Source: a virus
Length of the DNA: 39,783 bases
Direction: 5' to 3' (one strand)
Virus record (IMG/VR): IMGVR_UViG_3300029267_003963
Coordinates: 1-39,783 of that record
The notes beneath the pieces were generated by a model. That model saw only the letters and a list, made by a program, of their open reading frames with translations, was not told the origin of the DNA and made no database searches. This document shows positions 2,075-37,777 of the stretch, piece after piece. The stretch's first letter is position 1. Each line of letters opens with the position of its first letter. A program made the position numbers and the translations under genes.

Positions 2075-2091
2075 CTCGACGTCTCCGGCGG
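2075..2091 (-). repeat. Dispersed 17-mer, copy 1 (variant)
   Basis: Minus-strand sequence CCGCCGGAGACGTCGAG, one base different from the consensus CCGCCGGAAACGTCGAG. It lies in the 70-bp gap between the stop at 2107 and the TTG start at 2036, 39 bp before that start. Confidence 0.65.
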
Positions 2092-2106
2092 GGCCGGCGG
2101 CCGGCT

Positions 2107-2388
2107 TTACTTGAAAACCAGGATAAACTCCATGATGATTGCCAGCAGTTCGCGGATAAATTCCAGGAAGCTATCCCAGTCAATTTCGGCCACGTCTTCG
2201 GTCCCGCGCAACTTGCCTTCCAAGACAAGCTGACACACCAGTTCCTCGTGGAGCGCTTCGACCAGGGCCGGCCGCCAGAGGCGGAGCCGGGCCCGGAAAC
2301 AATCGCGGCGGTCAATGTCGCCGTCGGCCGCGGCGTCGACGAGGGCTTGCCGGACTACCCGGCGCATCTCTCGGAGGTGGTCTTGCAT
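2107..2388 (-). CDS. Small protein with C-terminal hydrophobic helix, 93 aa
   Basis: Unrecognised. The start ATG at 2388 has GGAG 7 nt upstream. The N-terminal two thirds are charged and helical (MQDHLREMRRVVRQ and following), and the last 20 or so residues (about 74-92) are strongly hydrophobic with two interrupting acidic residues, ending FILVFK. That is compatible with a tail-anchored or amphipathic membrane-active helix. With the neighbouring 115-aa protein, the secreted protein and the peptidase it forms a four-gene block in the lysis position. A holin-like role is a guess from position and hydrophobicity only. Confidence 0.7.
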   Translation of the reverse strand: MQDHLREMRRVVRQALVDAAADGDIDRRDCFRARLRLWRPALVEALHEELVCQLVLEGKLRGTEDVAEIDWDSFLEFIRELLAIIMEFILVFK

Positions 2389-2450
2389 AGTCTCACTCCA
2401 GGGCAGGAAAGGAAAAAGGAAAGGGGAAGGCGGCCGGCCGTCGGCCGGTC

Positions 2451-2798
2451 TCACGTTTCGGTGGTTTCGGTGGCCGGCTCGGCGTCGGCCTCTCCCAGGC
2501 GAATTCTCAATTTGAGTTGGCCCAGAATCTTTTGCAAAATCGGCCGGAGCTTGGGCAACAGGTCGCGGAGTTCGGCGGGCAGCTTGTCGAGGTCCAGCCC
2601 CAGGCCGTCGAGCAACCCGGCGCCGTCGGCGGGCGGGTCGAGGGCCAGGTCCAGCAGAATCCCGTCCTCCTGGACGTCGGCCAGAATCTCGACGGCCAGA
2701 ATGGCCAGGTGGCCGAACCAGTCGGCCGTGTTCTGGACACTGTCGGCGGCGGCTCCGGCGTGCATGGCGGCATAGGCCGCGGAGTCTCTAATTCTCAT
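2451..2798 (-). CDS. Hypothetical amphipathic helical protein, 115 aa, first gene of peptidase cassette
   Basis: The start ATG at 2798 has GGAG 8 nt upstream, within the GGAGCCC leader seen at several other starts. The protein is helix-rich: a central segment (about residues 24-55) is hydrophobic but studded with acids, then comes a leucine-rich stretch (LLDGLGLDLDKLPAELRDLL) and an acidic Thr/Glu tail. There is no clear transmembrane segment. It is the first gene after the terminators of the early region, so a promoter for the cassette is expected between 2799 and 3168. Function unknown. Confidence 0.7.
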   Translation of the reverse strand: MRIRDSAAYAAMHAGAAADSVQNTADWFGHLAILAVEILADVQEDGILLDLALDPPADGAGLLDGLGLDLDKLPAELRDLLPKLRPILQKILGQLKLRIRLGEADAEPATETTET

Positions 2799-2839
2799 CG
2801 CGTGGGCTCCGGTGGTTGGGAAGTGGGAAAGCTGCTTAC

Positions 2840-2856
2840 CTCGACGTTTCCGGCGG
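2840..2856 (-). repeat. Dispersed 17-mer, copy 2
   Basis: Exact minus-strand CCGCCGGAAACGTCGAG in the intergenic region, 42 bp before the start of the 115-aa gene at 2798. Confidence 0.8.
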
Positions 2857-2905
2857 TGGCCCCTCGGCGGCGGTCCGGCGTCTCGCCGGCTGGCCGTTCC
2901 CGGCG

Positions 2906-2950
2906 CTCGTGCGGCAGCACGAATTAGAAAACCTCGCGCGGCAGCGCGAA
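2906..2950 (-). other. Twin covarying stem-loops
   Basis: Two hairpins lie side by side: TCGTGC-GGCA-GCACGA (2907-2922) and TCGCGC-GGCA-GCGCGA (2934-2949). Both have a 6-bp perfect stem and the same 4-nt loop. The stems differ by a compensated change (T-A in one, C-G in the other), which favours a selected RNA structure over chance. On the minus strand the first one read (2949-2934) is followed by GGTTTTCTAATT, so it could be a second terminator. A related hairpin (18874-18889) precedes the gene starting at 18865. Confidence 0.6.
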
Positions 2951-2993
2951 CCAAGAAGAACCGGGGCCGGGTTGGAGCCGTCCCGGCCCCGGT
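2950..2993 (-). terminator. Strong hairpin terminator at end of early operon
   Basis: A 12-bp perfect inverted repeat (2960-2971 with 2982-2993, arms ACCGGGGCCGGG and CCCGGCCCCGGT) has a 10-nt loop. Read on the minus strand the stem is followed by TTCTTCTTGG, a U-rich tail, so this fits an intrinsic terminator for transcripts coming through 3169. The rest of the 370-bp gap 2799-3168 holds another 8-bp hairpin (3035-3057), the twin stem-loops, one 17-mer copy and a possible promoter, but no gene. Confidence 0.7.
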
Positions 2994-3135
2994 GGTGCAT
3001 CCCGGCGTCGGGCGGCCGGGCGTTTCGTCCTGCGCGTTTCCACGCGAGGGGTGGGAACGTGAGGGGGTCGCGGTTGGGCGGGCTGTTGGCTCCACAGTAG
3101 CCCCCGGCGGGAAAGGAAAGCGGCAAAGTCGCTCT

Positions 3136-3166
3136 ATTCTTCTTAATAGGACAAACGCGGGCAAAA
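3136..3166 (-). promoter_or_regulatory. Possible promoter, TTTTGCCCG type, site A
   Basis: In an AT-rich patch just after the stop at 3169 the minus strand reads TTTTGCCCG (3166-3158). The TTGCCC hexamer is exactly 17 bp from AAGAAT (3141-3136), a 4/6 match to a -10 box. The same TTTTGCCCG with the same 17-bp spacing occurs at 34274-34244. The weak hexamers and the terminators lying downstream keep confidence low; those terminators would require antitermination or leakage. Confidence 0.3.
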
Positions 3167-3168
3167 CC

Positions 3169-3432
3169 TTAGCGGCGCGTCAGTTTTAAGAGCCGGAGGC
3201 AGTCGCGGGCCAGGCGCCGGACGGCCTTCTGGTCGTGTCGGGCCAGGCGCAGGGCGCGGCGTTGGATCGTCCGCCGCTGGCTGGGCCAGGGCGGCGTGGG
3301 CTCGCGGTCAAGGCCCATAAGTTGGTGGAGCTTCTGGACTTCCGCCAACAGGAGGCGGGCGTTCTCGCGGTGGTCGACCGTCGGGTCGTCGACGGCCAGG
3401 AGGCAATCCTCGCGGAGCTTTTGCAGGTTCAT
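3169..3432 (-). CDS. Hypothetical basic helical protein, 87 aa, last gene of early operon
   Basis: The start ATG at 3432 overlaps the stop of the amino-methyltransferase (ATGA). The N-terminal half is a regular helix (NLQKLREDCLLAVDD...NARLLLAEVQKLHQL) and the C-terminal half is very basic (QRRTIQRRALRLARHDQKAVRR), so nucleic-acid contact is plausible. No family recognised. It ends just before the hairpin-rich 2799-3168 gap. Confidence 0.75.
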   Translation of the reverse strand: MNLQKLREDCLLAVDDPTVDHRENARLLLAEVQKLHQLMGLDREPTPPWPSQRRTIQRRALRLARHDQKAVRRLARDCLRLLKLTRR

Positions 3433-4208
3433 CGCGTCCCCATTTCGTGAATCGCGGCCAGGAGGGCCAGGCGTTGCAGGCGGTCCATGCGGCGTAGCTC
3501 GCCGGCCAGGTGGTCGAGGTAGCCGGCCACCACGTCGCAAGCCACGGCGCGGCGGCCCAGGTCGCGCGCGGCCAGCGTGTAGGGGCCACACCCGCAACAG
3601 GGCTCGACCACCAGGTCGCCGGGCGCGGTCACCACGCGCAACAGGTCCCGGCACAACGCGACCGGCTTGGGGCTGGGGTGGTTATCATTCGAGGGCCGCG
3701 GGTGGCGAAGCACGTTGGGCACGTCGCGGTCAAAGATCCGCGGCGTCCCCTTCCCGGCGTGCAAAATAAGTTCGTGCTGAACCCGGAACCCGTTGCCCAG
3801 GCCGAAACTCTCCTTGTCCCAGACCAGCATATTGCAGAGGCGAAGGTTGCAACTCTCGACGGCGCCGGCCAGGTGGGGCCACTGTCGCCAGTCGATCCAG
3901 CAAAGCAGACTGGCCCCGTCGACCATTCGAGGGACCAGCAGGCGGAGCAACTCGCGGACGAACCAGACAAAACCCACGGTGGTCATCTGGTCGTTTTCTA
4001 TCGGCCGGGCGTTCCAGCGCTGGCCGCGGACCATTGCCCCGGACCGGCTCTTGGTGGCCTCCGTCCTGGCCCCGGAGGCATAAGGCGGATCAATGCAAAC
4101 GGCGGCCACGGGCGGCGTCTCCGGCCGCTCCGTCCAGAGGCCCCGGAACACGTCCAGCGCGTCGCCGTAGAAAAGCAAGGCCGTCTCGTCTTGGTGGTAG
4201 GGGTGCAT
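3429..4208 (-). CDS. DNA N4-cytosine/N6-adenine methyltransferase (PF01555 type)
   Basis: A 259-aa SAM-dependent amino-methyltransferase. Motif IV is DPPY (residues 40-43, in VCIDPPYASG). A conserved HPSPKPVAL segment (motif X-like) precedes VVEPCCGCGPYTLA (about residue 210), the SAM-binding motif I with Cys in place of the usual D/F residues. This order (DPPY first, SAM loop last) is the beta class, which usually acts without a fixed cleavage partner in phages. No restriction endonuclease gene was recognised nearby, so an orphan, self-protective or regulatory methylase is likely. The start ATG at 4208 has only a weak ribosome site. Target base and sequence cannot be told. Confidence 0.9.
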   Translation of the reverse strand: MHPYHQDETALLFYGDALDVFRGLWTERPETPPVAAVCIDPPYASGARTEATKSRSGAMVRGQRWNARPIENDQMTTVGFVWFVRELLRLLVPRMVDGASLLCWIDWRQWPHLAGAVESCNLRLCNMLVWDKESFGLGNGFRVQHELILHAGKGTPRIFDRDVPNVLRHPRPSNDNHPSPKPVALCRDLLRVVTAPGDLVVEPCCGCGPYTLAARDLGRRAVACDVVAGYLDHLAGELRRMDRLQRLALLAAIHEMGTR

Positions 4209-4252
4209 GTTTTGCTTCGAGTTTCCACGCGAGGAGTAAAGGCTGGGGGTCC

Positions 4253-4483
4253 TCAGGGCTGGACAATCTCCGGGCCCTTGGCCTGGCCGTTTTCGGCGGC
4301 GGGCTTGGAGTCGTGGGCCAGGGCCAACCAGCCGGTAACCGCCCCATCAATGAGTCGGACGTGGGTGGGGACCAGGCAAATAAGGTCCCTTTCCTCCACC
4401 TGGGCCTCCTGCAAGAACTGGGCCAGGACTAGGGGCAACGGCGGCGGGCGGGTGGGGTCGCATTGGAAGACTATCGCTTTCAC
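4253..4483 (-). CDS. Hypothetical protein, 76 aa
   Basis: I choose the GTG at 4483 because AAAGGA lies 10 nt upstream within the leader CGAAAGGACCCC shared with other starts. The protein begins VKAIVFQCDP, has an amphipathic helix (PLVLAQFLQEAQVEERDLI) and a beta-like stretch ending at ALAHDSKPAAENG. It overlaps the 3' part of the HTH gene by 137 nt in another frame, which is unusual. One of the two may be shorter than drawn. The 44-bp gap to 4208 holds a GTTTCCACGCGAGG sequence also present at 3036-3049. Confidence 0.5.
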   Translation of the reverse strand: MKAIVFQCDPTRPPPLPLVLAQFLQEAQVEERDLICLVPTHVRLIDGAVTGWLALAHDSKPAAENGQAKGPEIVQP

Positions 4484-4697
4484 GGTCGGGGGTCCTTTCG
4501 AGTTGGCGGCGGAGGGCGGCCCAGCGGCGGCCCAGGCGAATGTTGCGGACGGTGAACACGGCCAGGCCAAAGCGGCGGGCCAGGGGCGCGTCGTCGGCCG
4601 GGCCGCGGGCGGCGCGGATAATCTCCGCGGCTTGCGCGGGGGTCAGGCGGGCCGTCCCACAACCCCGGGACCGGCCCCAGTCGGTTTCGAGGTTCAT
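4347..4697 (-). CDS. Helix-turn-helix DNA-binding protein, 116 aa
   Basis: The start ATG at 4697 overlaps the preceding stop (ATGA). Residues about 18-65 form a homeodomain-like HTH: a first helix LTPAQAAEIIRAAR, then LARRFGLAVFTVRNI as the turn and recognition helix, then GRRWAALRR. Similar HTHs occur in phage regulators and in proteins linked to HNH endonucleases. From about residue 70 on the sequence is low-complexity Pro/Gly and overlaps the 76-aa gene, so the real C-terminus may be shorter. It is one of few candidate transcription regulators in the genome, since no classical repressor was found. Confidence 0.65.
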   Translation of the reverse strand: MNLETDWGRSRGCGTARLTPAQAAEIIRAARGPADDAPLARRFGLAVFTVRNIRLGRRWAALRRQLERTPDRESDSLPMRPHPPAAVAPSPGPVLAGGPGGGKGPYLPGPHPRPTH

Positions 4698-5176
4698 GCG
4701 TAGCCGTCCGGATCGGCGGCCGGATCGCATCCGTCCACCTCGACCTCGTGTTCCAGTTGGCCCCGCAACTCCTCTTCCAGGCCGTAGACGTGGAAGGGCC
4801 GGTCGCGGAGCCTGGCGGCGGCGGCCCGGGCGGTGGCCTCGGTGCAAGGGGTCAGGGCGTAGAGGCTCCCGGGGGCCACCAGCTTGGTAAAGGCTCCGCG
4901 GCCGGCGGCGGCCGGCACGTCGACGCGCAGCAGGCCGGGAACCAGGCTGGAATCGGGCGACACCCGGCCGGCCAGCCGGGCGTGGCCCATCAACTCGACA
5001 ATCGCCCAGACGGCCACGGTATGGGGCTGGGGCGGGGCGGGGTGGTCTTCGTGCATTGGCAGAATTCCTCCATCATCATAGGCGAAGTGGGTAGCGGTCT
5101 GCGGTCCGTCGGCCCGGGTGTAATACACCCGGCCGGCGGCGTCGCGGTGTACGGACAAAAAAACGCGGCCAGTCAT
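4694..5176 (-). CDS. Conserved-type phage protein, 160 aa
   Basis: No named family. The core (about residues 53-125) reads VAVWAIVELMGHARLAGRV, then RVDVP, FTKLVAPGSLYALTPCTEATARAAA. I associate this pattern with small uncharacterised proteins of many tailed phages, but cannot attach a function to it. The N-terminus is beta-rich (RVFLSVHRDAAGRVYYTRA) and the C-terminus acidic. It starts 3 nt after the cytosine methyltransferase stop, so it is part of the same operon. Confidence 0.75.
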   Translation of the reverse strand: MTGRVFLSVHRDAAGRVYYTRADGPQTATHFAYDDGGILPMHEDHPAPPQPHTVAVWAIVELMGHARLAGRVSPDSSLVPGLLRVDVPAAAGRGAFTKLVAPGSLYALTPCTEATARAAAARLRDRPFHVYGLEEELRGQLEHEVEVDGCDPAADPDGYA

Positions 5177-5179
5177 CGC

Positions 5180-6706
5180 TCAGGCGGCCTGTAAAATCGT
5201 GCGGCAGAGGGCCTCGGCCACGGGCGGGCAGACGGAGTTGCCCACCTGGCGGACGCGCTCGGCCTTGGTTCCAAACAGTTGGTATCCGGCCGGAAAGCCC
5301 TGGGCGGCGAGTAGCTCGTCCACGTCGAGCATCCGGAAGCCGACGTCGACGACCCCCAGTTCGTGCATCGTGGCAATCAGGGATTGGGCGGCGGCGGTTC
5401 CGGCGGTGCCCAGCAGCAAGCGGACCGACGGGAAGCGGGCAGCCCGGGCGACCCCGGGACACACCAGGCCGAATCGGTGGCGGGTCGTAATCGTGCCCAG
5501 CGGTCCCGACACTCCCGCGGCCCTGCCGGTGCCGAAGTATTTGGTTAGGAAGGGGACGACCAGGCTGTGGCCGTTCTTGGCGGTCAGCGTGGCCAGCGGG
5601 TCGGACGGCGACCGGCTGCGGTCATCGTCGCCCCCGTGGTTAATGGCCAGCAGGTAGGGAACGGCCAGGGCGCCGGCCCCGTGCGAGGTCACCGCGGGAA
5701 GCGGCGCGGCCGGGTCGTGCGTCCGCGGGGCCTGGCCCGGGCGCTCGCCAAAGTTGGGGACCAGGTAGGGACAGGCCAGGGCGTAGCGGTTCTGTGTGTC
5801 GAGCGTCGGCAGCGGGTCGCCCGGGCGGTAGTTGCGCCGGTCCCCGTCAGGCCCGTTGTGGTACTGGGAGAGCAAGGGCACACAGAGCGCGTGGTGGCCC
5901 GCACGGGCGGTAATCGTCGGCAGCGGGTCGCCGGCGCTCCGCGCGTCCATGTTGCGGCGGAGGGTCACGGCAAACGGCCCTACAAACTTCCGGAGGCCCG
6001 TTTCTATCCGGCGGAGCGTCTTGTCGGCCAGCGGCCGCTTTCGGCTGAAAATCGACGGGCAGGGCTTCGACCAGTCGATAATGCCCGCGGCCGGTCGCCA
6101 TTGGTCGCGGGAGTGCGTGGGGTCGGGCCAGGGAATGGCGCGGCGGCTTTGCTGGCGGCGGGCGACCACGAAAAGGCGGGTCCGGTTGGTGGCGGCCCCG
6201 TAGTCGGCCGCGTTGAGTAGCTGGTGGTCGACCTGGTAGCCCAGGCTTTCCAGGGCACGAATCCAGGCCCGGAAGGTGTCGCCGGCGCGCTTCTTGTCGG
6301 GCCGGCCGCGGCCGTCGAGGGGGCCCCAGTTGCGAAACTCGCGGACGTTCTCCACGATCACCCACCTCGGCCGCTTGGCCTCGGCCCAGGCGCAAACGTG
6401 CCAGGGCGTGGCCCTCTTCTGGTCGTCGATCGGCTGGCCGCCCCGGGCGATTGAGTGGTGGGTACACTCGGGGGCCGCAAGCAGAATGTCGAGCTCGGGC
6501 AGGGTGCGGTCGTTGCGCGGGTCGACGTCGTCTATCCGGGCGCAGATATGGCGGGTCTCGGGGTGGTTGGCCTGGTGGGAATAGACGGCCGGCCGCCAGT
6601 GGTTGACGGCCAGGCAGACGTCGACCCCGGCGGCCGCGGCCCCGGTGGTGAATCCCCCGGCCCCGCAAAACAGGTCGGCGGCGCGCTTTCTGGCGGTGCG
6701 TTTCAT
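5180..6706 (-). CDS. DNA C5-cytosine methyltransferase
   Basis: A 508-aa protein. Motif I is DLFCGAGGFT (11-20). Motif IV is APECTHHS with nucleophile C81, the PEC variant found in a subset of phage enzymes instead of PPCQ. Motif VI is ENV (119-121), the motif VIII-like segment NRTRLFVV (about 174-181), and the C-terminal motif X is VGNSV (about 488). The start ATG at 6706 overlaps the preceding stop (ATGA) and has AAGGGGA upstream. The region between motifs VIII and X holds about five repeats of a unit beginning PLxT(I/L)T and ending in a hydrophobic xxPxL stretch. This is the place of the target-recognition domain. It would methylate cytosine in phage and perhaps host DNA; no partner nuclease is recognised. 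Confidence 0.93.
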   Translation of the reverse strand: MKRTARKRAADLFCGAGGFTTGAAAAGVDVCLAVNHWRPAVYSHQANHPETRHICARIDDVDPRNDRTLPELDILLAAPECTHHSIARGGQPIDDQKRATPWHVCAWAEAKRPRWVIVENVREFRNWGPLDGRGRPDKKRAGDTFRAWIRALESLGYQVDHQLLNAADYGAATNRTRLFVVARRQQSRRAIPWPDPTHSRDQWRPAAGIIDWSKPCPSIFSRKRPLADKTLRRIETGLRKFVGPFAVTLRRNMDARSAGDPLPTITARAGHHALCVPLLSQYHNGPDGDRRNYRPGDPLPTLDTQNRYALACPYLVPNFGERPGQAPRTHDPAAPLPAVTSHGAGALAVPYLLAINHGGDDDRSRSPSDPLATLTAKNGHSLVVPFLTKYFGTGRAAGVSGPLGTITTRHRFGLVCPGVARAARFPSVRLLLGTAGTAAAQSLIATMHELGVVDVGFRMLDVDELLAAQGFPAGYQLFGTKAERVRQVGNSVCPPVAEALCRTILQAA

Positions 6707-7041
6707 GGGGTCCCCTTCGTGGCCTGTTGGGTGGCCCAGCGGGCCCAGGCCTCGTTGTCCTGGAGGACGGCCTGGTCGGGCTGGTCGGGGTGGTAGCGGT
6801 AATCGGCTTGCAGGACGTGTCGGCAGCCCCCGCCCTTCCCGCGCTTGCAGACAAAGCCGCTGGAGGGCGGCGCAAGGCGGGTGTAGACGTAGGCGGTTTC
6901 GGCGTCGCGCATCAGGTCGCCGGGCTGGTCGAGGGCGTCGACGGCGCCCGTTTCTTCGTCGACCACAACGCGGAGCCACAGCGGAGCGCGGCGGAGTGCA
7001 AGGGTTCGTCCGGCGGCCGGGCCTTCGAAAAACGTAATCAT
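6703..7041 (-). CDS. Hypothetical phage protein, 112 aa
   Basis: The N-terminus reads MITFFEGPAAGRTLALRRAP followed by LRVVVDEETGAVDALDQPGD, a beta-rich pattern I associate with uncharacterised phage proteins; no function is known to me. There are three Cys/His residues in a possible small metal site (C.. GGGCRH). The start has the CGAAAGGAC leader. It is linked by ATGA overlaps to both the upstream DUF4031 gene and the downstream methyltransferase. Confidence 0.8.
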   Translation of the reverse strand: MITFFEGPAAGRTLALRRAPLWLRVVVDEETGAVDALDQPGDLMRDAETAYVYTRLAPPSSGFVCKRGKGGGCRHVLQADYRYHPDQPDQAVLQDNEAWARWATQQATKGTP

Positions 7042-7325
7042 CGGCGGGCGTCCTTTCGTTCAGCCAGTCGGCGGGCGCGGACAAACTCGACGGCGTGGCG
7101 GGCGTCGGTCTCCAGGGCCCCGGCGTTCACGGCCAAGAGTCGCTTTCCCGGCGTCAAGTCGTAGTGGGGAAAATGGCGGCGGTTCTGGAACCAGCAGCGG
7201 CGCAGTCCGCAGGCGCGGGCGCAGGCGTGCAACTCGTCGAGCGTGTCGGCGTAGAGGTGGCAGCTTCGCCGGTAGGGCCAGCGCTTCGTGGGAATCGTCG
7301 AGCGGAGGGGGTCGACGTAGATCAT
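7038..7325 (-). CDS. DUF4031 family protein, 95 aa
   Basis: The protein begins MIYVDPLRST and contains YADTLDELHACA (about 25-36) and GLRRCWFQ, then FPHYDLTPGKR and AVNAGA. These are the hallmark pieces of DUF4031 (V-D-D strand, aD-t-dELH helix, HYDlt, GA). These proteins are common in phages and actinobacteria; their biochemical role is not established. ATGA overlaps join it to its two neighbours. Family assignment is fairly firm, function unknown. Confidence 0.85.
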   Translation of the reverse strand: MIYVDPLRSTIPTKRWPYRRSCHLYADTLDELHACARACGLRRCWFQNRRHFPHYDLTPGKRLLAVNAGALETDARHAVEFVRARRLAERKDARR

Positions 7326-7657
7326 GGCTGGCGGGCCTCCGGAAGTTCGCGGGTCAGGCGGACGGTGTCGGCCGCGGTGCGGAAGGCCCAGGCGGCGCCC
7401 TGCAAAAAGGCTCTTTCCAGCCAGCCCATTACGTCGGCCTGGGATAGACCCCCAACGAGGGCCGCTTGGGTGAAATGCGGGAAGCGGTCCAGCCCGTCCC
7501 GGGCCGCGGCCGCAGCGGCCACGTCAGCCGCGGCCGGCGGGTGGCCGGTCAGGTCGGGCACGGCCGGCGGGTCCGGCGGGTCCAGCGGGGGTGAAGGGGC
7601 CGGCGGCGGGTCGGTGGTAGGGTCGCCGTACCAGTGGCCTTTGAAAATCCCGAACAT
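7322..7657 (-). CDS. Hypothetical protein with proline-rich N-terminus, 111 aa
   Basis: The start ATG at 7657 has GGAG 9 nt upstream, and I prefer it to the ATG five codons earlier. It begins MFGIFKGHWYGDP, then a Pro/Asp/Ala-rich spacer (about 15-45), then a helical C-terminal half (LSQADVMGWLERAFLQGAAWAFRTAADTVR is the region, residues about 73-102). No family recognised. It lies 2 nt after the HD phosphohydrolase stop, in the same operon. Confidence 0.7.
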   Translation of the reverse strand: MFGIFKGHWYGDPTTDPPPAPSPPLDPPDPPAVPDLTGHPPAAADVAAAAAARDGLDRFPHFTQAALVGGLSQADVMGWLERAFLQGAAWAFRTAADTVRLTRELPEARQP

Positions 7658-7659
7658 GG

Positions 7660-8208
7660 TTATTCGCTCCATTGGTTGAGGCGGTCGAGGAACACCCCGG
7701 CGGCTACGTCGGCGGCCGTCAGGCTCCGGGGGATCCGTTCGGGGTAGGGGACGGCCTCGGGGTCGTAGGGGTCGCCGGCCATCAGGTCGCGGCGCTCCGT
7801 GGCCAGCATCCGCGCGTCAACTTCCACAACGGCGGCCGGCACGCGCCGCGGCCGGAGGCCGAAGCGCTCGGCCACGGCGGCCAGAATCCCGTTTTCGAGG
7901 TCTTCATAAGGGACCAGGCGGCGGCCGTCGTGGACGAATAGCTGGCCCTTGAGCGGCCCGGGGGCGTCGCCCAGGTAGGCCTCGGCGGCGTCGTGCAAAA
8001 GCCCCCAGAGGCGGAGGCGGCCGGCGGGGAGTCGGCGGGCGACCTCCAGGCTGTGGTCGAGGACGGACCAGTTCGGGACGGTCTGGCCGGCCCAGCGGGG
8101 CATCCGGGCCAGGCCCCAGGCAATGTCCTCTGGGTCTATGTCCTCGGCGCGGGGGTGCAGCGGGTCCAGCACGCGGCCGGAGCGCGTCAAACGCCAGGGG
8201 TTGGGCAT
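7660..8208 (-). CDS. HD-domain phosphohydrolase, YfdR-like
   Basis: A 182-aa HD protein with the metal ligands H52 (VLDHSLEVA), H72-D73 (LLHDAAEAYLGD) and D131 before MLATERRDL. The segments HDAAEAYLGD, PGPLKG and MLATERRDL closely match E. coli YfdR from prophage CPS-53, a nucleotide 5'-monophosphohydrolase. The likely role is trimming or recycling deoxynucleotides during phage replication. The E. coli prophage also pairs yfdR with yfdQ (DUF2303), and a DUF2303-like gene lies about 1.2 kb upstream here. The start has the GAAAGGCCCC leader and lies within the 3' end of the sigma gene (22-nt overlap). Confidence 0.88.
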   Translation of the reverse strand: MPNPWRLTRSGRVLDPLHPRAEDIDPEDIAWGLARMPRWAGQTVPNWSVLDHSLEVARRLPAGRLRLWGLLHDAAEAYLGDAPGPLKGQLFVHDGRRLVPYEDLENGILAAVAERFGLRPRRVPAAVVEVDARMLATERRDLMAGDPYDPEAVPYPERIPRSLTAADVAAGVFLDRLNQWSE

Positions 8209-9191
8209 CGTGGGGCCTTTCGGGGTTGGGCGGCCCGGTGACTCTCCCAGGTCGCGGTGGGGTCGAGCGTGTCGCGGAGGCGGCGCAGCGCGGCGCTTCG
8301 AAGCTGGCTAATGCGGCTTTCGCTCAGGTGGAGAACCTCTCCTACTTTCTTGAGCGTGTGGCCCTTTTCGAAGTTGAGGTAGAGGACGACCAGTTCGTCG
8401 GTTTCCAGCACGCGCAACATGGCCTGAAAGGCCCAGGGGGCCCGCTGGTCGCCGCGCCCTGGCAGGACGTCGGCCAGGGTGGTAGTCCGGTGGGCGTCGT
8501 CCGGTTGTCGCGGCAGCGGCGCGTCGAGGTGGTGGACCTTCGCCGGTTGGCCCTCGGCCAGTTCCGCGGGCGAAAGGCCCAGCAGTCCGGCCACCTCGTC
8601 GTCCGTCGGCCGGCGGCCCAGGTGGTCGGTCAACACCTGGCGGGCGTGGGCCTCGCCGGCGGCGCGTTGCCGCTGGAGACGGGGAACCGGGTCCGTGTTG
8701 CGGAGATCGTCGAGCATCGCCCCGCGAATCCGCGGCGGGGCGTAGGTGCCAAACAGCACGCCCCGGGCCGGGTCGAATCGCTTTACGGCCTCCATCAGCC
8801 CCAGGTATCCGGCGCTTCGGAGTTCGTCGTCACTGACGGCGGCCACGGGCACCCCGCGGCGGCGCAGCGCGGCGACGGCGTAGTCGACCAGGTAGCGGTA
8901 GGCGATCACCAGGCGGTTTCGGGCCTCGACGCTCCGGCCGTCCTCACCCAGCGGCGGCGGGCCGTAGGCGGCCCAGAGGGCGGCGTGCGGTCCGGCTCGA
9001 CGTTTCCGGCGGGGCTTCCGGCCGGCGGCCGGCCGGCGGCCCGGTTTGGCCGGCGGGGGCACCTTTTCCGGCGGAATCCGTTTCAGCCGGTAGTAAAGGC
9101 TCCTTGTGGAGATTTGCAGGCGGCGGGCGGCCTTCGTGCGGTTTCCGCCCGTCGCGTGCAAGGCTGCGAGAATCTGGCTATCCGTTGCCAT
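8187..9191 (-). CDS. Sigma-28/SigF-type sigma factor with N-terminal Fis-type HTH
   Basis: A 334-aa protein. Residues 1-38 (MATDSQILAALHATGG...TKAARRLQISTRSLYYRL) are a Fis-type HTH like those at the C-terminus of sigma-54 activators. A basic Pro/Arg linker follows. Region 2 spans about 86-170, with YLGLMEAVKRFDPARG and TYAPPRIRGAMLDDLR, nearly diagnostic for FliA-type group 3 factors, then DPVPR. Region 3 is next, and region 4 (about 262-312) contains ETDELVVLYLNFEKGHTLKKVGE and LHLSESRISQLRSAAL. I chose the start at 9191, where the HTH begins; there is no clear ribosome site, but it overlaps the stop of the CsrA-like gene by 14 nt, so coupling is likely. It would redirect host RNA polymerase to late or phage-specific promoters. 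Confidence 0.88.
   Translation of the reverse strand: MATDSQILAALHATGGNRTKAARRLQISTRSLYYRLKRIPPEKVPPPAKPGRRPAAGRKPRRKRRAGPHAALWAAYGPPPLGEDGRSVEARNRLVIAYRYLVDYAVAALRRRGVPVAAVSDDELRSAGYLGLMEAVKRFDPARGVLFGTYAPPRIRGAMLDDLRNTDPVPRLQRQRAAGEAHARQVLTDHLGRRPTDDEVAGLLGLSPAELAEGQPAKVHHLDAPLPRQPDDAHRTTTLADVLPGRGDQRAPWAFQAMLRVLETDELVVLYLNFEKGHTLKKVGEVLHLSESRISQLRSAALRRLRDTLDPTATWESHRAAQPRKAPRCPTPGV
8996..9012 (-). repeat. Dispersed 17-mer, copy 3 (inside sigma gene)
   Basis: Exact minus-strand CCGCCGGAAACGTCGAG inside the linker of the sigma factor gene, read there as P-R-R-K-R-R-A. Confidence 0.8.
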
Positions 9192-9381
9192 GCGGGGCTG
9201 GGGGGTTAAAGGTCGGGGGCTTCTCGCGGTTGACCAGTTCGCCGCGGAGGATCTTTGTCGCCGGCGGCGCGGCAATCGCCAGCCGGACCGAACCGCCGCG
9301 GACAGAAACCACGGTCGCCGTGATGTCGGGCCCGATCTGGATTTTCTGGCCGCGGTGGCGTGTCAGGACCAGGTTTCCCAT
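9178..9381 (-). CDS. CsrA-like RNA-binding regulator, paralogue 2
   Basis: A 67-aa protein with the CsrA/RsmA pattern shifted by one residue: LVLTRHRGQKIQIGPDI, TATVVSVRGGSVRLAI, and ILRGELV at the end of the core. The Arg at about 46 is the equivalent of the RNA-contacting R44 of E. coli CsrA. The tail (NREKPPTFNPP) is Pro-rich instead of the usual helix. CsrA dimers bind GGA motifs in 5' leaders and change translation or mRNA decay. The start ATG at 9381 has AAGGA about 8 nt upstream. The gene overlaps the sigma factor start, so both are probably made together, echoing bacterial csrA-flagellar gene linkage. Confidence 0.85.
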   Translation of the reverse strand: MGNLVLTRHRGQKIQIGPDITATVVSVRGGSVRLAIAAPPATKILRGELVNREKPPTFNPPAPHGNG

Positions 9382-9428
9382 AAAGTGTTTCCTTTCCGTG
9401 GAAATGGGGAGGGGGTTTCGGCCGCGGC

Positions 9429-10860: not shown

Positions 10861-11477
10861 TGGGTGGGGGCCTCGCTGGGAATCGTGGGGGCCTGGTCGC
10901 GGCGGACCTCATCGACGGCGCGGCCCAGCGCGGCGGTGGCGGCGGCGGCGTGCTGGAGTTGGGCCTCGGGGGCGGCCGGAGCGGGCGACCGCTCGGCAAG
11001 CAACCCGGCCAGGTCGAGCGGCACGTCGCGGCCCAGGTCGCGGAGGAGGTCGACCAGGGCCCGGGCGATCGTGGCGTCGGCCTGGCGGAGCCGGTGCAGC
11101 GCGTAGGCGTCGCGGGTGTTCGTGGGCCAGGTCAGGCCTAGGGCCTTGGCGGCCCCCAGGAGGTTCCCCCGGGTGCAGCGGAACCCCAAACAAGCCGTTG
11201 CGGCCTTGGCGGCGCGAAGTTGGGTATAGCGGGCCCTCTCAATGTCGGGCCAGCGCTGCGCCAGCCAGTCCTCTAACACCCGCTGGCGGGCCCGGTCCAG
11301 CTTGTTGGGCGGGGCCTTTTTGGCGGCGGCCGGCGGGCTGCCGCCCCCTCCGTTTTCGGCGGTGCGAAATCCGCTCGACGTTTCCGGCGGTGTCGACGTC
11401 GCCGGGTCAGTCGCCGGCGGCGGGCCGGCCGGGATCGGCAGGAGGGGCCTTGCGGGGCTCGCGTGTGGGTCGGTCAT
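10857..11477 (-). CDS. Hypothetical protein with possible DNA-binding helical domain, 206 aa
   Basis: The start ATG at 11477 has GGAG 9 nt upstream in the GGAGCCC leader. An N-terminal Pro/Thr/Ala-rich spacer (to about residue 58) is followed by a basic helical domain: LDRARQRVLEDWLAQRWPDI, then RAAKAATACLGF, TRGNLLGAAKALGL (an HTH-like helix pair) and LHRLRQADATIARALVDLL. The tail is acidic. A regulator or replication accessory protein is plausible. The 17-mer at 11374-11390 falls in the spacer region, read as P-P-E-T-S-S. Confidence 0.65.
   Translation of the reverse strand: MTDPHASPARPLLPIPAGPPPATDPATSTPPETSSGFRTAENGGGGSPPAAAKKAPPNKLDRARQRVLEDWLAQRWPDIERARYTQLRAAKAATACLGFRCTRGNLLGAAKALGLTWPTNTRDAYALHRLRQADATIARALVDLLRDLGRDVPLDLAGLLAERSPAPAAPEAQLQHAAAATAALGRAVDEVRRDQAPTIPSEAPTQ
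11374..11390 (-). repeat. Dispersed 17-mer, copy 4 (inside a gene)
   Basis: Exact minus-strand CCGCCGGAAACGTCGAG in the N-terminal spacer of the 206-aa gene, in a third reading frame (P-P-E-T-S-S). A partial relative, with the GA of CTCGACG deleted, lies close by at about 11348-11362 on the plus strand. Confidence 0.8.
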
Positions 11478-13097: not shown

Positions 13098-14102
13098 TTA
13101 CGGTTGCGGCAGCCGGGCCATGGCGGGGGCGACGACGGCCTCCGCGGCGAAGTAGTGGCCGGCGGTGGTGTTGAGGCTGGTGTGGCCCAGGGCCAGTTGC
13201 GCGGCGGTCGGGTCGAGCGGCGCAAGGCCGGTCGCCAGGGCCTTCCGCAGTCCGTGGAATCCGAAGCGGCGCCCCGGCGGCAGTCCGGCGCGGCGAAGCA
13301 TTTTGCGGCGCTGGGCCTGGAGGTAGCTCTCGGAGTAGTCCCACGGGAAAACGCGGCGGCGGCCGGCGGGGCGGAGCCGTTCGACGGCGGCCAGGGCGTG
13401 GGGGCTGGCGTAGAGTTGGCGGCCCTGGCCTCCCTTGTAGCTGGCCCCCGGGACGGTCAGCGTGTGGCCGTCGAGCCAGTCCCAGCGCATGGCCAGCGTC
13501 GAGCCGATCCGGAGGCCCGTGTTGTAGGTCCAGAGAATCAACGCGCGCCACCAGTCCGGAGAAGAGACCCCGCGGAGCGTCGGCAGGGTGGCCGTGTCGA
13601 CCACGTCGAGCCAGGCCCGTATTTCGTCGAGCGTGAAGGCCTCGGGCGTGGTCCGCTGGAGGGCGGGCCTTTCGAGGTAGGGCGGGCGGGCGATGAGTTC
13701 GGCGGCCGATCGGTTCCCCTTCCCGGGCGGGCCGGCCAGGTCGAGGCATTTCTGTATGTGCGCGCAATGCTTCCGGACCGTGTTGGCGCTGAGCGGTTCG
13801 CCGGGCTTGGCGCCGGGCAGCCGGCGCAGGCCGCGGACAAAGGCCGCGGCGTGTCCCTGGTGCATTTCGTCGAGCGTGGGGTCGCCGGTGAAGCGGGCCC
13901 AATACCGCAAACTCTCTTCGTACTGGGCAAAGGTCCGCCGGGATCGTCCCCGCGGGTCGAGGTAGACCGGCCGCACAAAGGCGCTGTAAAACTGGCCCAG
14001 CGTCAACAGGGAGGAAAGCCCCGGTGTGCAGGGCTCGGCGGTAGCCGGCGGGCCCTCGTAGAGGCGCAGCGGTGGCGGCAGTTTGCGCGCGGTGGTGGAC
14101 AT
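13098..14102 (-). CDS. int: Tyrosine recombinase, phage integrase
   Basis: A 334-aa protein with the complete catalytic set: R198 (NTGLRIGS), K223 (SYKGG), H283 and R286 (FHGLRKA), H307 (LGHTSLNTTAGHYF) and the nucleophile Y317 in the same motif. The N-terminal part contains an SAM-like core-binding domain (about 35-125: FYSAFVRPVYLDPRGRS... RTFAQYEESLRYWARF). It would integrate the phage at the host tRNA gene matched by the attP core 580 bp upstream. It starts at 14102, directly behind a 10-bp stem-loop in its leader. Confidence 0.95.
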   Translation of the reverse strand: MSTTARKLPPPLRLYEGPPATAEPCTPGLSSLLTLGQFYSAFVRPVYLDPRGRSRRTFAQYEESLRYWARFTGDPTLDEMHQGHAAAFVRGLRRLPGAKPGEPLSANTVRKHCAHIQKCLDLAGPPGKGNRSAAELIARPPYLERPALQRTTPEAFTLDEIRAWLDVVDTATLPTLRGVSSPDWWRALILWTYNTGLRIGSTLAMRWDWLDGHTLTVPGASYKGGQGRQLYASPHALAAVERLRPAGRRRVFPWDYSESYLQAQRRKMLRRAGLPPGRRFGFHGLRKALATGLAPLDPTAAQLALGHTSLNTTAGHYFAAEAVVAPAMARLPQP

Positions 14103-14202: not shown

Positions 14203-14685
14203 GGTTACAAAGGCAGGTCGGTTGGTGTGAAATGCGGCGGCCATGGCGCGGGGCACCCGGCCGGACCGTCGGCCCGGAAATGGGCCGACGGGCGGCCGTG
14301 GTGCGTTGACGGGTTACGGGCGGCCGGAGAAAGGTGGTCCAACCCCGGCCGGCGTCTCCGCTCGGCCGCGGCCTTCGCAACCCGGGGGAAGCCCAGAGGA
14401 AGGGGCGAGTCGAATGGAAGCGCTTTTTCTCAGTACGCCCGTCAAGCTAGGCCAGGCGGCGGGCCGTTGTCAAGAAGAGAAGGCGGCCGGCCAGGAGTGG
14501 TGTACGGGTGAAAAAGCGAGTCGCGCGTGTCGTGCGACGGCTTCCAAAAAACCCCCCAGAGCCTCGCGGCGTCTGGACACTCCCGGCCGGCCGTTGGTCG
14601 CTCGGGGCCGTTCAGCGGAACCAGACTCCGCAGAACACCCCCCGGCCTCTTTTCGCCGTAACCTCTGTTACGGCCTGGCCTTCAG

Positions 14686-14726
14686 TAGCGGCGCAGGGAC
14701 TCGAACCCCGGACACGCGGATTATGA
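14686..14726 (-). other. attP core: 3' half of a CAT-anticodon tRNA
   Basis: The minus strand reads like a tRNA from the anticodon to the discriminator base. It runs from CATAA (anticodon CAT at 14725-14723) through 3' anticodon stem TCCGC, a 5-nt variable loop and a T-arm with loop TTCGAGT and stem CGGGG/CCCTG. The acceptor strand CGCCGCT and discriminator A follow. Upstream, the matching 5' half (AGCGGCG, D-arm) is absent, so this is not a functional tRNA gene. It is the partial copy that restores a host tRNA (Met or Ile-CAT type) after integration, and it lies next to the integrase as expected. The exact crossover boundary beyond 14726 cannot be set without the host. Confidence 0.8.
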
Positions 14727-14933
14727 TCTCGGGCTAGTGCGGAACTACCAGCACAAGCGGCCTAAACTGGAGGGGCGGCCGGGTGGGGGCGCGCGGGGGG
14801 GTAATGAGGGGGCGGGGCGGGGGCAAGAATTTCCGGCGGAAAAGATTTTTCGGATTTTTTTCCCCCCGGGGGTTGTGGTAGGCTGTGGGGCGGCCGCGGG
14901 GGCCGGCGGGGTGGCCAGGAAGGAGGCGGAGCG

Positions 14934-20244: not shown

Positions 20245-20261
20245 CTCGACGTTTCCGGCGG
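20245..20261 (-). repeat. Dispersed 17-mer, copy 5
   Basis: Exact minus-strand CCGCCGGAAACGTCGAG in the 61-bp gap, 27 bp before the start at 20218. Confidence 0.8.
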
Positions 20262-22995: not shown

Positions 22996-23012
22996 CTCGA
23001 CGTTTTCGGCGG
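22996..23012 (-). repeat. Dispersed 17-mer, copy 6 (variant)
   Basis: Minus-strand CCGCCGAAAACGTCGAG (one base from consensus) in the 29-bp gap, 11 bp before the start at 22985. Confidence 0.75.
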
Positions 23013-34291: not shown

Positions 34292-34693
34292 TCAGGGGGA
34301 CCGCTCGACACTTTTGAACGTGTGGCCACAGTCCCGGCAGCGGTGGTAACGGACGGGGCGGCGGGTCGAGGTGGTCCGGGTGTTGGTCGAGGTGCAGGCC
34401 GGGCAGCGCAGGACATAGAAGGGGACGGCGTGGCCGTCGGCGTCCTCGCCGGCGTCGGCGGCCGGGTCCGTTCGGTTGGCCGGCTCGACGTTTCCGGCGG
34501 GGAGGACCTCCCCGCCGGTTTCGGCGGTGGCCCCTGGGACGCGGGGCGGCTGCGTGTGGATCCAGACGTGGCCGCAGAGGCGGCAGCGGAAGCGGGCCCA
34601 GGGTTGGCCCCAGCGCGTCCCGCGGGCGACGACGCGGGCCTCGGGGCAACCACAGGCGGGGCAGGGGTCGGGCGGGCACTCGTAGCGGTTCAT
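34292..34693 (-). CDS. Double zinc-ribbon protein, 133 aa
   Basis: The start ATG at 34693 overlaps the terminase stop (ATGA). Two zinc ribbons: CPPDPCPACGCPEARV with FRCRLCGHVW (residues about 6-44), and LRCPACTSTNTRTTST with HRCRDCGHTFKS (about 95-127), joined by an acidic linker that contains one 17-mer copy. Tied to the packaging genes; zinc ribbons here could bind DNA ends or portal, but function is unknown. Confidence 0.8.
   Translation of the reverse strand: MNRYECPPDPCPACGCPEARVVARGTRWGQPWARFRCRLCGHVWIHTQPPRVPGATAETGGEVLPAGNVEPANRTDPAADAGEDADGHAVPFYVLRCPACTSTNTRTTSTRRPVRYHRCRDCGHTFKSVERSP
34484..34500 (-). repeat. Dispersed 17-mer, copy 7 (inside zinc-ribbon gene)
   Basis: Exact minus-strand CCGCCGGAAACGTCGAG in the linker of the zinc-ribbon protein, read as P-A-G-N-V-E-P. 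Confidence 0.8.
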
Positions 34694-36744
34694 CGGCGGC
34701 CTCGTCGGCGGGATTTCTTCTGTTGGGCAAACCACCCGGCGGCCTCGGTGGCCGTCGGTTCGGCGGGGGCCGGCGGCGGCAACGGCGGCTGTCGGCTCAG
34801 GGGGGGCGGGCCGGTCGACGGTTCGGGCTCGGCGGTGAGTCGCCAGCCGGCCAGGTCCAGCGCGCCGGCGGCGTAGACCAGGCAGTCCAGCAGGTGGTTG
34901 GCGCGGCCGGCGGCCTCCCAGCGTGTGACCCAGCCCAGGCCGGCTTTCCACTCCGTGACGGAGCGCTCCGCGGTAAGGTGCTTGGTCAGGGTGATGTGTT
35001 CGCGGTCGCCGGCGGGCGAATCAAAAAAGGTGAGGGCGCCGGGCTGGTCGGGCGGGGTGCGGAGGCGGGCGTCGAGCCAGTTTTTGCCGTGGTCGACGTC
35101 CAGGACAACGTGGGTCCAGCCCGGGCGGTCCAGCCGGGCCAGGTGCCACCCGTTGCCGATTCGGCGGATTGAGCGGCTGGTCCGGCTCGGGTGCGTGTAG
35201 CGGCCCGGGTCGCGGCGCTGGGAGACCCCGCGGCCCAGGACGGGGCGGCAGAGGCGGCGGAGGCCCTCGCCCGTGCGGTGGCAAAATCCGTGGATGGCGT
35301 CGCGGTCGGCGGGGTAACTTTCGTCGATCCAGATTTGATCGGGCGGGCGTAGCTCGGGGCGGCCCTCCTGCGGCCATCCCGGCTGGAGCGTGTCGACCAG
35401 GTCGCCCAGGGCCTTGGAGATGGCCACTTGCAGGTCGAAGGCATCGCTTGGCACGTCGAAACGGCCATAGTCGGGAATGTGGAGCCGTCGGCAGGATCGG
35501 CCGGCCAGGACCAAGTAGTGGCCATAGCGTTTTCCCAGGTCGACGCCAACGGTGACGGCCTGGGTGTCGGGCGGCAACAGGCCGCGGGCGAAGTGGTCGC
35601 GGCGCTTGACCAGGATTTTGGTGTCGAGCGGGGCCTCGTCGACGTCGGGCGGGGCGGCGGGCAGGGCCCAAACCTGTTGGCGCATTTCCCGGTCTGCGGC
35701 CTCCTCGTCCTGGGCCCGGGCGGCGGCCCACTCCTCGCCGGCTATCTGGGCGGCCGACGTAAAGAGGTTGTGGACGGCGGACCAGCGGAAGCCCAGCGTT
35801 GAGGTGGGCGGCGCGTGGCCGGTGACCTGGCCATCGGGGGTTACCTCCTGGCCGCGGTGGACGGCGACGGCTCGGAGGTTGGCCGCGCGGCGCTGGGCTT
35901 CGGTCCAGGGCTCCGCGCAGGCCGGACAGTGGAAGGCGCCGGCCGCGCGGGCGGCGTGTTCGTTCTCGGCCTCCTGCCACCCGCTGAAGTGTTCGCGCTC
36001 CGGGGTAACGTGGGCCTTGCAATGCGGGCAAGGCAACCGGAGTTCGGTGGCCGTCCCCTGGTGGACCTCTTGCCAGATCCGGCCTTCCTCGATGCTTGCG
36101 GTGCATTCCAGGTAAATCCGCTTGTGGTCGCCGTAGGCCCGGGTCCGACCCTCAAGCTGTTTCAGCTTGTCGGTTTCGCGGCTGGTGCTTCCCGGCGTGT
36201 CCAGGCCGTCGGCCTCGGTGACCACCAGGACGCGGGCGGTAAAGGCGGCGCGGCTCTTGTCGCGCCCGCCCCCGCTCATAAAGCGCAGCGTGCAACCGTT
36301 GCGGAAAGTGAGGCTGCGAACCTTGCCCCCTTTGCTGCCGAGTCCTCGACGCGGCAAAAGGTCGCGGTACGGGCTCCGGAGGATGGCCGGCAGGAGGTCC
36401 AGGTTCCACTTGTCGGCGGCCATGTCCATATCGGGCAGGCCGCAAATCACGTTTTCCTCGACCTCGAAAAGGTGGTAAAGCGTGGGGAGGATAAAGGCAA
36501 TCCAGGTTTTGCCGCTCTGCGTGGGGCCGACGGCGGTAAAGCGGTTCCAGAGGCCGGAGTCGAGCAGGTCGAGGTAGTGGCCGGTGTACGGCTGCCGCTC
36601 CACGCGGAAGCGGCGGCCGACCCAGGGACCGTCGGGCAGGACCAGGCCCTCGGCAAAGGCGCGCATGGTGCGCAGTCGCGGGGCGCGGGCCTGGCGGGTG
36701 AACCAGCGGGCTTCGGCGGCCGTGTTAGGAGTGAGGGTTGCCAT
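34690..36744 (-). CDS. terL: Terminase large subunit, lambda GpA type
   Basis: A 684-aa protein. ATPase: Walker A GPTQSGKT (73-80), Walker B region RVLVVTEADG (171-180). A zinc-finger pair CPHC (about 240) and CPAC follows, as in GpA-family enzymes. The nuclease half has VGVDLGKRYGHY (first Asp), IDESYPADRD and HLLDCLVYAAG as the acidic RNase H-like sites. I use the ATG at 36744, which overlaps the small subunit gene by 20 nt; an ATG eight codons earlier is less likely. Gene order small subunit, large subunit, portal is lambdoid, favouring cos-type or similar packaging. Confidence 0.95.
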   Translation of the reverse strand: MATLTPNTAAEARWFTRQARAPRLRTMRAFAEGLVLPDGPWVGRRFRVERQPYTGHYLDLLDSGLWNRFTAVGPTQSGKTWIAFILPTLYHLFEVEENVICGLPDMDMAADKWNLDLLPAILRSPYRDLLPRRGLGSKGGKVRSLTFRNGCTLRFMSGGGRDKSRAAFTARVLVVTEADGLDTPGSTSRETDKLKQLEGRTRAYGDHKRIYLECTASIEEGRIWQEVHQGTATELRLPCPHCKAHVTPEREHFSGWQEAENEHAARAAGAFHCPACAEPWTEAQRRAANLRAVAVHRGQEVTPDGQVTGHAPPTSTLGFRWSAVHNLFTSAAQIAGEEWAAARAQDEEAADREMRQQVWALPAAPPDVDEAPLDTKILVKRRDHFARGLLPPDTQAVTVGVDLGKRYGHYLVLAGRSCRRLHIPDYGRFDVPSDAFDLQVAISKALGDLVDTLQPGWPQEGRPELRPPDQIWIDESYPADRDAIHGFCHRTGEGLRRLCRPVLGRGVSQRRDPGRYTHPSRTSRSIRRIGNGWHLARLDRPGWTHVVLDVDHGKNWLDARLRTPPDQPGALTFFDSPAGDREHITLTKHLTAERSVTEWKAGLGWVTRWEAAGRANHLLDCLVYAAGALDLAGWRLTAEPEPSTGPPPLSRQPPLPPPAPAEPTATEAAGWFAQQKKSRRRGRR

Positions 36745-37339
36745 TTTCGCGGGCGGCCAGCGTGTCAATGAGTCGGTCGGCTTCGTCGAGGGCCTCGTCC
36801 AGCGTGTTTTGGGCCTCCAGGCCGTATGTCCGCTGGAGGGATTGGCCGGCGGCGCGGATTACCCGGGCGATTTGCCCCAGGAGTTCGTGGACCTCTTCCC
36901 GCGGCAAGAGGCTTCGCTCGCGTTCCAGGCGGTCCAGCCGGGCTAGCTTGGCGCGCTCCTGGCGGTACTTCTCCAGGGCCGGCGACGCGGAGCCGGCCAG
37001 CAGCGGGTCGGCCTGGTCGGTCTTCGTGTTCCGCTGGGCGTCTCGCCAGGCGTGGATTTCGTGGAGGTTGTAGGCGCCGGCCGCCCCCGGGCAACCGGCG
37101 GCCAGCCAACCGGCAACCGTCCTCAGCCCCACGCCGAAGTATTGGGCGACCTCGTCGCGGGTCTTGGCGGTGCGGACCTCCTGGGCCAGGCCGCGGGCAA
37201 TCAGCCATTGGCGGACGGCGGCGGCGTCAAAGTCGGGCCGGCCGCGGGCCTTGCGCGTGCAGGGCAGACCGTCCGCAAGCCATTTGTTGAGGGTCTTGCG
37301 GTCGGTGCCTAGTGCGGCAATGAGGGCCTTTCCGGTCAT
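36725..37339 (-). CDS. terS: Terminase small subunit, Nu1-like with two winged-helix motifs
   Basis: A 204-aa protein with two successive MerR/Nu1-like HTH segments: LGTDRKTLNKWLADGLP with RPDFDAAAVRQWL (about 9-46), and YFGVGLRTVAGWLAAGCP with AYNLHEIHAWR (about 67-99). A long helical oligomerisation region (ALEKYRQERAKLARLDRLER) and ENGNPHS tail follow. Nu1 has one such HTH; two in tandem are less usual and may recognise a repeated packaging site. Partner of the downstream GpA-type subunit. Confidence 0.85.
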   Translation of the reverse strand: MTGKALIAALGTDRKTLNKWLADGLPCTRKARGRPDFDAAAVRQWLIARGLAQEVRTAKTRDEVAQYFGVGLRTVAGWLAAGCPGAAGAYNLHEIHAWRDAQRNTKTDQADPLLAGSASPALEKYRQERAKLARLDRLERERSLLPREEVHELLGQIARVIRAAGQSLQRTYGLEAQNTLDEALDEADRLIDTLAARENGNPHS

Positions 37340-37342
37340 TCA

Positions 37343-37777
37343 TCAGCCGGTAATTCTCAGGCCGTGGAGTGGGTCGGGGTCGCCCGGTGGCGGCGTCGGT
37401 ACCGGCTCGACGTTTTCGGCGGGGCGAGCTGGTCGCCGCGGCGCGGCCGTGTGGAGCCGTTCCAGCTTGTGGAGTTCGCGGAGCGCGGCCAGGGCCGACC
37501 GCATATCGTCCTCGGACAAGGCTTTGCGGTAGACCTCGGCCAGGCGGCGGCGGGCCAGCCCCAGGGCCTCGACCTGGTCGACCTCGGCGGCCAGGGCCAG
37601 GCGGCGGCGGGCCTCGACCAGGGCGGCCTCGAGCGCGGCCGGCGTCGGCGGCTTCTTCCCGGCCGCGGGGGCCTGCGCTGCGGCGGCCGTCTTGATTTGG
37701 TCGGGTGTGTGGCCGGCGACCAGCAAAAGAACCACGTTGTCGACCAGGCCGGCGGGCGGGGGTTTCGGGGTTTTCAT
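37343..37777 (-). CDS. Helical packaging-region protein, 144 aa
   Basis: The first part (VDNVVLLLVAGHTPDQIKTAAA) is HTH-like, and a long helix (AALEAALVEARRRLALAAEV and following to LRELHKLERL) resembles small terminase-associated proteins. The C-terminus is Pro-rich and carries one 17-mer copy. It sits directly upstream of the Nu1-like gene. A second small-terminase component or packaging accessory is plausible. Confidence 0.65.
   Translation of the reverse strand: MKTPKPPPAGLVDNVVLLLVAGHTPDQIKTAAAAQAPAAGKKPPTPAALEAALVEARRRLALAAEVDQVEALGLARRRLAEVYRKALSEDDMRSALAALRELHKLERLHTAAPRRPARPAENVEPVPTPPPGDPDPLHGLRITG
37406..37422 (-). repeat. Dispersed 17-mer, copy 8 (variant, inside a gene)
   Basis: Minus-strand CCGCCGAAAACGTCGAG (one base from consensus) in the C-terminus of the 144-aa gene, read as P-A-E-N-V-E-P. 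Confidence 0.75.

Follow-up and report, generated by a model that had tools for sequence, protein, structure and literature searches.

Several kinds of short DNA site that recur along a phage genome have been described among the mycobacteriophages. The stoperators of the Cluster A phages L5 and Bxb1 are short and asymmetric, occur in 24-34 copies, are oriented with transcription and lie mainly in short intergenic gaps (PMC3029335), and the stoperators of L5 and TipsytheTRex show their greatest variability at mid-site (PMC9283540). The repeats of Corndog (Cluster O), whose function is unknown, are 17 bp long, number 34 copies and form perfect inverted repeats of 7 bp around 3 bp (PMC4351075), while the start-associated sequences of Cluster K are located 3-7 bp before gene starts and contain an AGGAG core (PMC3203893). 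The current analysis concerns a further set of sites, which share the 17-bp sequence CCGCCGGAAACGTCGAG, in the DNA of an uncultured bacterial virus (IMG/VR record IMGVR_UViG_3300029267_003963, positions 1-39,783). This whole stretch of 39,783 nt, referred to here as the window, contains eight copies of the sequence with at most one mismatch, and all eight are found on the minus strand, which is the coding strand of all recognised genes. Our preferred, albeit tentative, interpretation of the sequence evidence is that these eight sites would serve as lineage-specific, one-direction DNA recognition sites for a phage-encoded transcription-control protein.

The eight sites are real and are not an accident of codon usage. 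Their coordinates, mismatch counts and strands, as listed in the original prediction, were all reproduced: five copies are exact, two carry A at position 7 (22996 and 37406) and one carries G at position 9 (2075). Beyond these, the window holds no copy with two mismatches and only two with three (4283 on the minus strand and 12839 on the plus strand), which is the level expected by chance. A comparison with shuffled sequence, which the original prediction had proposed, bears out the set as well, with 0.54 matches to CCGCCGGAAACGTCGAG at up to three mismatches expected from dinucleotide shuffles, as against eight copies at up to one. Under Markov models of orders up to 5, for whose training the eight sites were masked, the total expectation is at most about 0.01 copies at up to one mismatch (at order 5, 0.008 for the minus strand and 0.0014 for the plus strand). 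Furthermore, the CCGCCGGAAACGTCGAG family has the highest copy number of any 17-mer family in the window, and no other family reaches eight; the runner-up is G+C-rich simple sequence centred on a 45-bp tandem repeat, three units of which occupy 31539-31673, within the Pro-rich linker that joins the protease and capsid domains. Among the 16 occurrences of the shorter word CCGCCG[AG]AA on the coding strand, half belong to full sites or near-identical sequences and the other half lack any continuation.

The locations of the sites are also far from random, as half of them are fully intergenic, compared with 6.6% of 17-bp windows (P about 0.001). The background for this comparison leaves out the stretch 12919-15427, which holds no site and in which the integrase was then unrecognised. 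Among the intergenic copies, site 1 (2075..2091, minus strand, as are all the others; CCGCCGGAGACGTCGAG, one mismatch) has its end 38 nt upstream of a TTG start, site 2 (2840..2856, exact) stops 41 nt short of the start codon of a 115-aa gene (2451-2798), site 5 (20245..20261, exact) ends 26 nt before the ATG of the gene 19931-20218, and site 6 (22996..23012, CCGCCGAAAACGTCGAG) ends 10 nt before the ATG of the gene 22317-22985. These distances are close to the gaps of 11-42 bp claimed originally for four copies. The remaining four sites are found inside genes. Site 3 (8996..9012, exact) encodes PRRKRRA in a sigma-factor gene, between its Fis-type helix-turn-helix (HTH) and its sigma domains; site 4 (11374..11390, exact) covers residues 30-35 of a 206-aa gene (10857-11477), within a Pro/Thr-rich N-terminal stretch; site 7 (34484..34500, exact) falls in a variable linker between two zinc ribbons; and site 8 (37406..37422, CCGCCGAAAACGTCGAG) covers residues 119-124 of a 144-aa gene, in its C-terminal tail, and stops 66 nt short of the terminase small subunit gene. 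The three other in-gene sites are at least 281 nt from the next start. As the original prediction stated, the in-gene copies fall in linkers or tails, and protein conservation cannot explain them. They are read in three frames and partly with rare codons, such as CGT and CGA (2% and 9% of Arg codons, respectively) at site 3 and, directly upstream of the core of site 4 in the 206-aa gene, ACA (3% of Thr codons). It is therefore the DNA sequence that is shared, rather than a peptide.

Within the 17 bp, variation is limited to position 7 (G, or A in two copies) and position 9 (A, except for a single copy with G), and these two positions are central in the site. Some conservation may extend a little way upstream of the core, judging from flank columns -2 (C in seven of eight) and -1 (A or C in all eight), and the G found at column -7 in every site (P about 0.025 across the flank columns as a whole) hints that contacts are not limited to the core. 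The site also contains an imperfect dyad, CG.CG-N4-CG.CG, whose spacer holds all of the variation and in which one mismatched pair is conserved. We treat the site as asymmetric because the mismatched pair is conserved and because such dyads are expected often in this DNA. Two sites adjoin larger symmetric structures. The final six bases of site 1 form part of the 5' arm of the hairpin GTCGAGGGG-gcccg-CCCCTCGAC, and a perfect 25-bp palindrome at 34494-34518, CCGGCGGGGAGGTCCTCCCCGCCGG, ends in the first seven bases of site 7.

When examining the distribution of the motif, it is evident that the site set is, as far as sequence comparison reveals, specific to this phage lineage. Eighteen other viral contigs match the motif with one match each at the scanned pattern, which equals the chance expectation. 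The relatives of the phage are distant, as its nearest terminase shares 50% identity (L030) and the top capsid matches about 56% (L031 and L034), and no copy of the site is present in the relatives L026-L040 or their records, so we reject conservation of the sites throughout the family. The 39.5-kb genome G010 has syntenic head-tail genes, a CsrA gene and genes homologous to those at 9429 and 10265, and it contains no site, no repeat set of its own and no recognisable sigma factor. Neither does G009 contain a repeat set of this kind, and L031 has only a local repeat cluster. Among the relatives found, there is also no counterpart of the HTH-fused sigma factor. A motif shared with the host or otherwise widespread is likewise rejected as far as this is testable, given the 18 single viral matches and the absence of any copy at up to one mismatch from the bacterial genome with a terminase relative. 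The latter is the only bacterial genome to match the terminase and does so through a 3.4-kb contig, possibly misbinned, in an Elusimicrobia metagenome-assembled genome; other Elusimicrobiota have no close terminases. The original prediction held that absence from the corresponding positions of close relatives would refute it; absence is what we found among these distant relatives, where it is compatible with a lineage-specific site. Two loci offer a view of individual sites. At site 6, the upstream stop and downstream start almost touch in L034 and L038, which are about 45% identical to the window in the gene downstream, whereas in the window they are separated by a 28-nt spacer in which the site lies; either the site was gained in the lineage of the window or it was lost together with the spacer in both L034 and L038. 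At site 7, the site falls in a linker of the zinc-ribbon protein whose length varies among the relatives. An origin of this gene as a fusion scar was rejected, as the relatives also carry two ribbons. A dispersed repeat of another kind was encountered in a different viral contig, L080, in which positions 504-15816 contain at least 14 copies around TCCGCCGTTTGCGCCTGA in both orientations and with conserved flanks, resembling a larger repeated element.

Based upon these features, we infer that the sites are bound by a phage protein whose effect on RNA polymerase follows the direction in which the genes are transcribed. This is supported by several observations: 1) there are eight copies where about 0.01 would be expected, 2) the four intergenic sites precede starts by 10-41 nt and a fifth precedes the terminase small subunit by 66 nt, and 3) the substitutions are limited to positions 7 and 9, the same mid-site variability as in the stoperators of L5 and TipsytheTRex. 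The most likely reader, accounting for about half of this hypothesis, would be the sigma factor in whose gene site 3 resides (8187..9191, minus strand). This is a FliA/WhiG-type protein with an N-terminal Fis-type HTH (Pfam HTH_8, Sigma70_r2/r3/r4); its match to TIGR02479 has an E value of 4e-43 and is under the curated cut-off, and its best solved-structure match is FliA (6pmi). The -10 consensus of sigma-28 is GCCGATAA (PMC2859248), and all eight sites contain GCCGRARA in the sense direction, at one to three mismatches from this consensus, with the -10-like element occurring as GCCGGAAA in five sites, GCCGAAAA in two and GCCGGAGA in one. Identical residues of the phage sigma factor align with D81, R84 and R91 of FliA. 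Koo et al. reportedly showed in 2009 that these three FliA residues read GCCG in the -10 element. In another alignment (A2), E. coli FliA formed the third row and served only for picking conserved stretches. A link to the sigma factor is also favored by G010, which lacks both a recognisable sigma factor and the sites, and by sigma-70-like promoters, which are not above chance in the phage. In this scenario, the sites would constitute a promoter family without the usual -35 box. In its most specific form, the proposal is that a sigma factor of novel construction, FliA/WhiG-type with a fused Fis-type HTH, would read an extended -10 element and the bases downstream of it, so that modules across the genome would be switched on by a single viral factor. 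Taken by itself, this specific proposal is an unlikely one.

Most of the remainder of the hypothesis would fall to a candidate immunity repressor, for which the sites would be operators or stoperators in the prophage. A repressor is the second candidate reader because the integrase makes this phage temperate, a trait that the original prediction leaves unmentioned. The gene for the tyrosine integrase is located at 13098..14102 on the minus strand (phrog_1, E 4e-30; PF00589, E 1e-12), and close upstream of it, at 14685..14727 on the same strand, is the 3' half of a tRNA with the anticodon CAT, which is probably the attP core. The same 34 tRNA bases occur exactly, with different surroundings, in two other viral contigs (L081 and L082) and are absent from 60 Elusimicrobiota genomes. 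The attP-like tRNA end adds to the evidence of a temperate lifestyle and, because it lies inside the contig, suggests that an integrated prophage is probably not what the contig represents. The general layout of the sites and the temperate lifestyle both back the stoperator idea.

A number of observations weigh against recognition by a phage transcription-control protein, be it the sigma factor or a repressor. Firstly, a canonical sigma-28 promoter is rejected for lack of its -35 element: the mean best match to TAAA about 15 bp upstream is 1.25 of 4 at the sites compared with 1.33 in the background, and TAAA is found upstream only at site 2075, where it overlaps a stop codon. No variation occurs in the seven bases 3' of the -10-like part, which is unusual for sigma-28 promoters. 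GCCG is very common in the window, and about 3% of random 17-mers with the same composition would, by a rough estimate, match GCCGATAA at six of eight positions. Neither flank of the eight sites yielded a second conserved box, whether its distance was kept constant or allowed to vary. Site 6 ends only 10 nt from its ATG, which would make for a poor leader, and other viral contigs encoding FliA-like sigma factors have no comparable one-way repeat set, although at just 26-37% identity in that protein they are uninformative as replicates. Secondly, no immunity repressor was recognised in the phage. Thirdly, the orientation bias is partly compositional. In the whole window, the counts of CCGCCG are 344 for the coding strand and 17 for the plus strand, a difference of about 20-fold, and the background model favors the minus orientation of the site by about 6:1. 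The one-direction argument of the original prediction stands insofar as all eight sites run with transcription, but it is weakened because the strand composition already favors this outcome.

Among competing explanations, the sites could be copies of a functionless small dispersed repeat of 17-20 bp, spread by recombination or template switching and surviving where it is harmless, in spacers, linkers and tails. We consider this, the foremost of the alternatives, possible but rather doubtful. Such a repeat might possibly mark recombination boundaries between modules. It would provide a good account of the linker positions, including that of the zinc-ribbon site in a linker of variable length and those of the other in-gene copies at domain junctions or tails, as well as of the apparent insertion at site 6 relative to L034 and L038. 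The identity of five copies, with one change in each of the other three, and the lack of copies in relatives are also in its favor. However, it is a bad account of orientation, as both orientations would be expected of a repeat (eight of eight one way has a probability of 1/128) and the 17-mer is stop-free in both; the one-way orientation is strong evidence only against this possibility of a mobile repeat landing at random. Furthermore, the flanks of the eight sites have no target-site duplications, the changes are confined to the middle of the site, and there is no copy with two mismatches and so no visible decay series. The small mobile repeat that the original prediction offered as an alternative retains some plausibility, with one site, site 6, looking inserted in comparison with its homologues.

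An element acting at the RNA level is improbable. Here, the transcript would be bound by a phage RNA-binding protein such as CsrA or would fold into a GNRA-capped hairpin, CG.CG-GAAA-CG.CG, to affect translation or antitermination. Every copy lies in the sense strand, the phage has two CsrA genes (9178-9381 and 12727-12918, both on the minus strand), and the 17-mer can be folded with a GAAA or GAGA loop in six of the eight sites. Yet the resulting hairpin has little stability (-2.7 or -1.3 kcal/mol), does not exceed the background in this respect and retains the conserved mismatch. A common RNA hairpin was rejected, as folding reveals nothing shared by all eight sites; strong hairpins touch only sites 7 and 1, and the sites have no match in Rfam. 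A CsrA site is disfavored too, since the GGA needed by CsrA is missing from two of the eight copies, and relatives carrying CsrA, such as G010 and G011 with one gene each, do not have the sites.

Less probable still is a role of the sites in partition, packaging or DNA maintenance, even though the phage encodes candidate readers in a ParB-like protein (phrog_723, phrog_620) and a terminase small subunit that is itself an HTH protein. The ParB-like match is weak and DNA-modification proteins (phrog_498) share it, the motif occurs genome-wide and lacks symmetry, and L031 and L028 have homologues of the terminase small subunit without having the sites. The ParB site envisaged in the original prediction is not borne out, as the sequence also contains no parS-like palindrome. 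Lastly, chance or codon usage in a G+C-rich, strand-skewed genome can practically be dismissed, for although CCGCCG is so much commoner on the coding strand and a partial match at 21589 indicates that codon usage alone can yield part of the word, the order-5 expectation is minute and the CCGCCG[AG]AA words extend either fully or not at all.

The remaining gene content includes a protease-capsid fusion and a decoration protein alongside a terminase and a portal of the lambda type. The phage also encodes a PAPS-reductase-like protein and two DNA methylases, one for cytosine and one of the N4/N6 type. Two copies of another sequence, CCTCGCGTGGAAAC, are found at about 4215-4230 and 3035-3050 on the minus strand, one of them upstream of a DNA methylase gene.

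When the eight sites are compared with known systems, they belong with the dispersed short repeats of phages and are likely to have a regulatory role, and the interpretation given in the original prediction is partly supported. Its likening of the sites to stoperators holds for their asymmetry, single orientation and intergenic enrichment in a temperate phage. Like those of L5 and Bxb1, they are short multi-copy sites directed along transcription and vary in the middle, whereas they differ in having only eight copies, half of which are in genes, in their unrelated sequence and in the lack of a recognised repressor. Its second comparison, with start-associated sequences, fails. The sites resemble those of Cluster K in being asymmetric, in one orientation and upstream of genes, but their distance from starts is 10-66 nt or runs into the hundreds, some are within genes, and they have no Shine-Dalgarno-like AGGAG core, which excludes them from that class. 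The Corndog repeats share the length of 17 bp, near invariance, exclusively central variation and the presence of both intergenic and in-gene copies. However, they are perfect palindromes without orientation, whereas the eight sites described here are asymmetric, are all in one orientation and have only the imperfect CG.CG-N4-CG.CG dyad; we therefore do not assign them to the Corndog type. As for sigma-28 (FliA/WhiG) promoters, the likeness consists of a phage-encoded sigma factor of this type together with a GCCGRARA element resembling the -10, and the difference consists of the missing -35 TAAA and a conserved block that runs seven bases further 3'.

The promoters of phage T7 are dispersed, near-identical, contiguous and co-oriented, and they are found both between and inside genes. 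The eight sites have a similar layout, being co-oriented and placed between and inside genes, with an unrelated sequence, and no T7-like single-subunit RNA polymerase gene is present among the window genes examined. The closest repeat sets that we found all come from mycobacteriophages. The phage described here has no near relative in the collections searched. The set offers a concrete pairing of the phage sigma factor or a candidate repressor with these 17 bp. A one-way set of sites accompanied by the phage's own sigma factor would broaden the notion of phages equipping their genomes with regulatory sites private to them.

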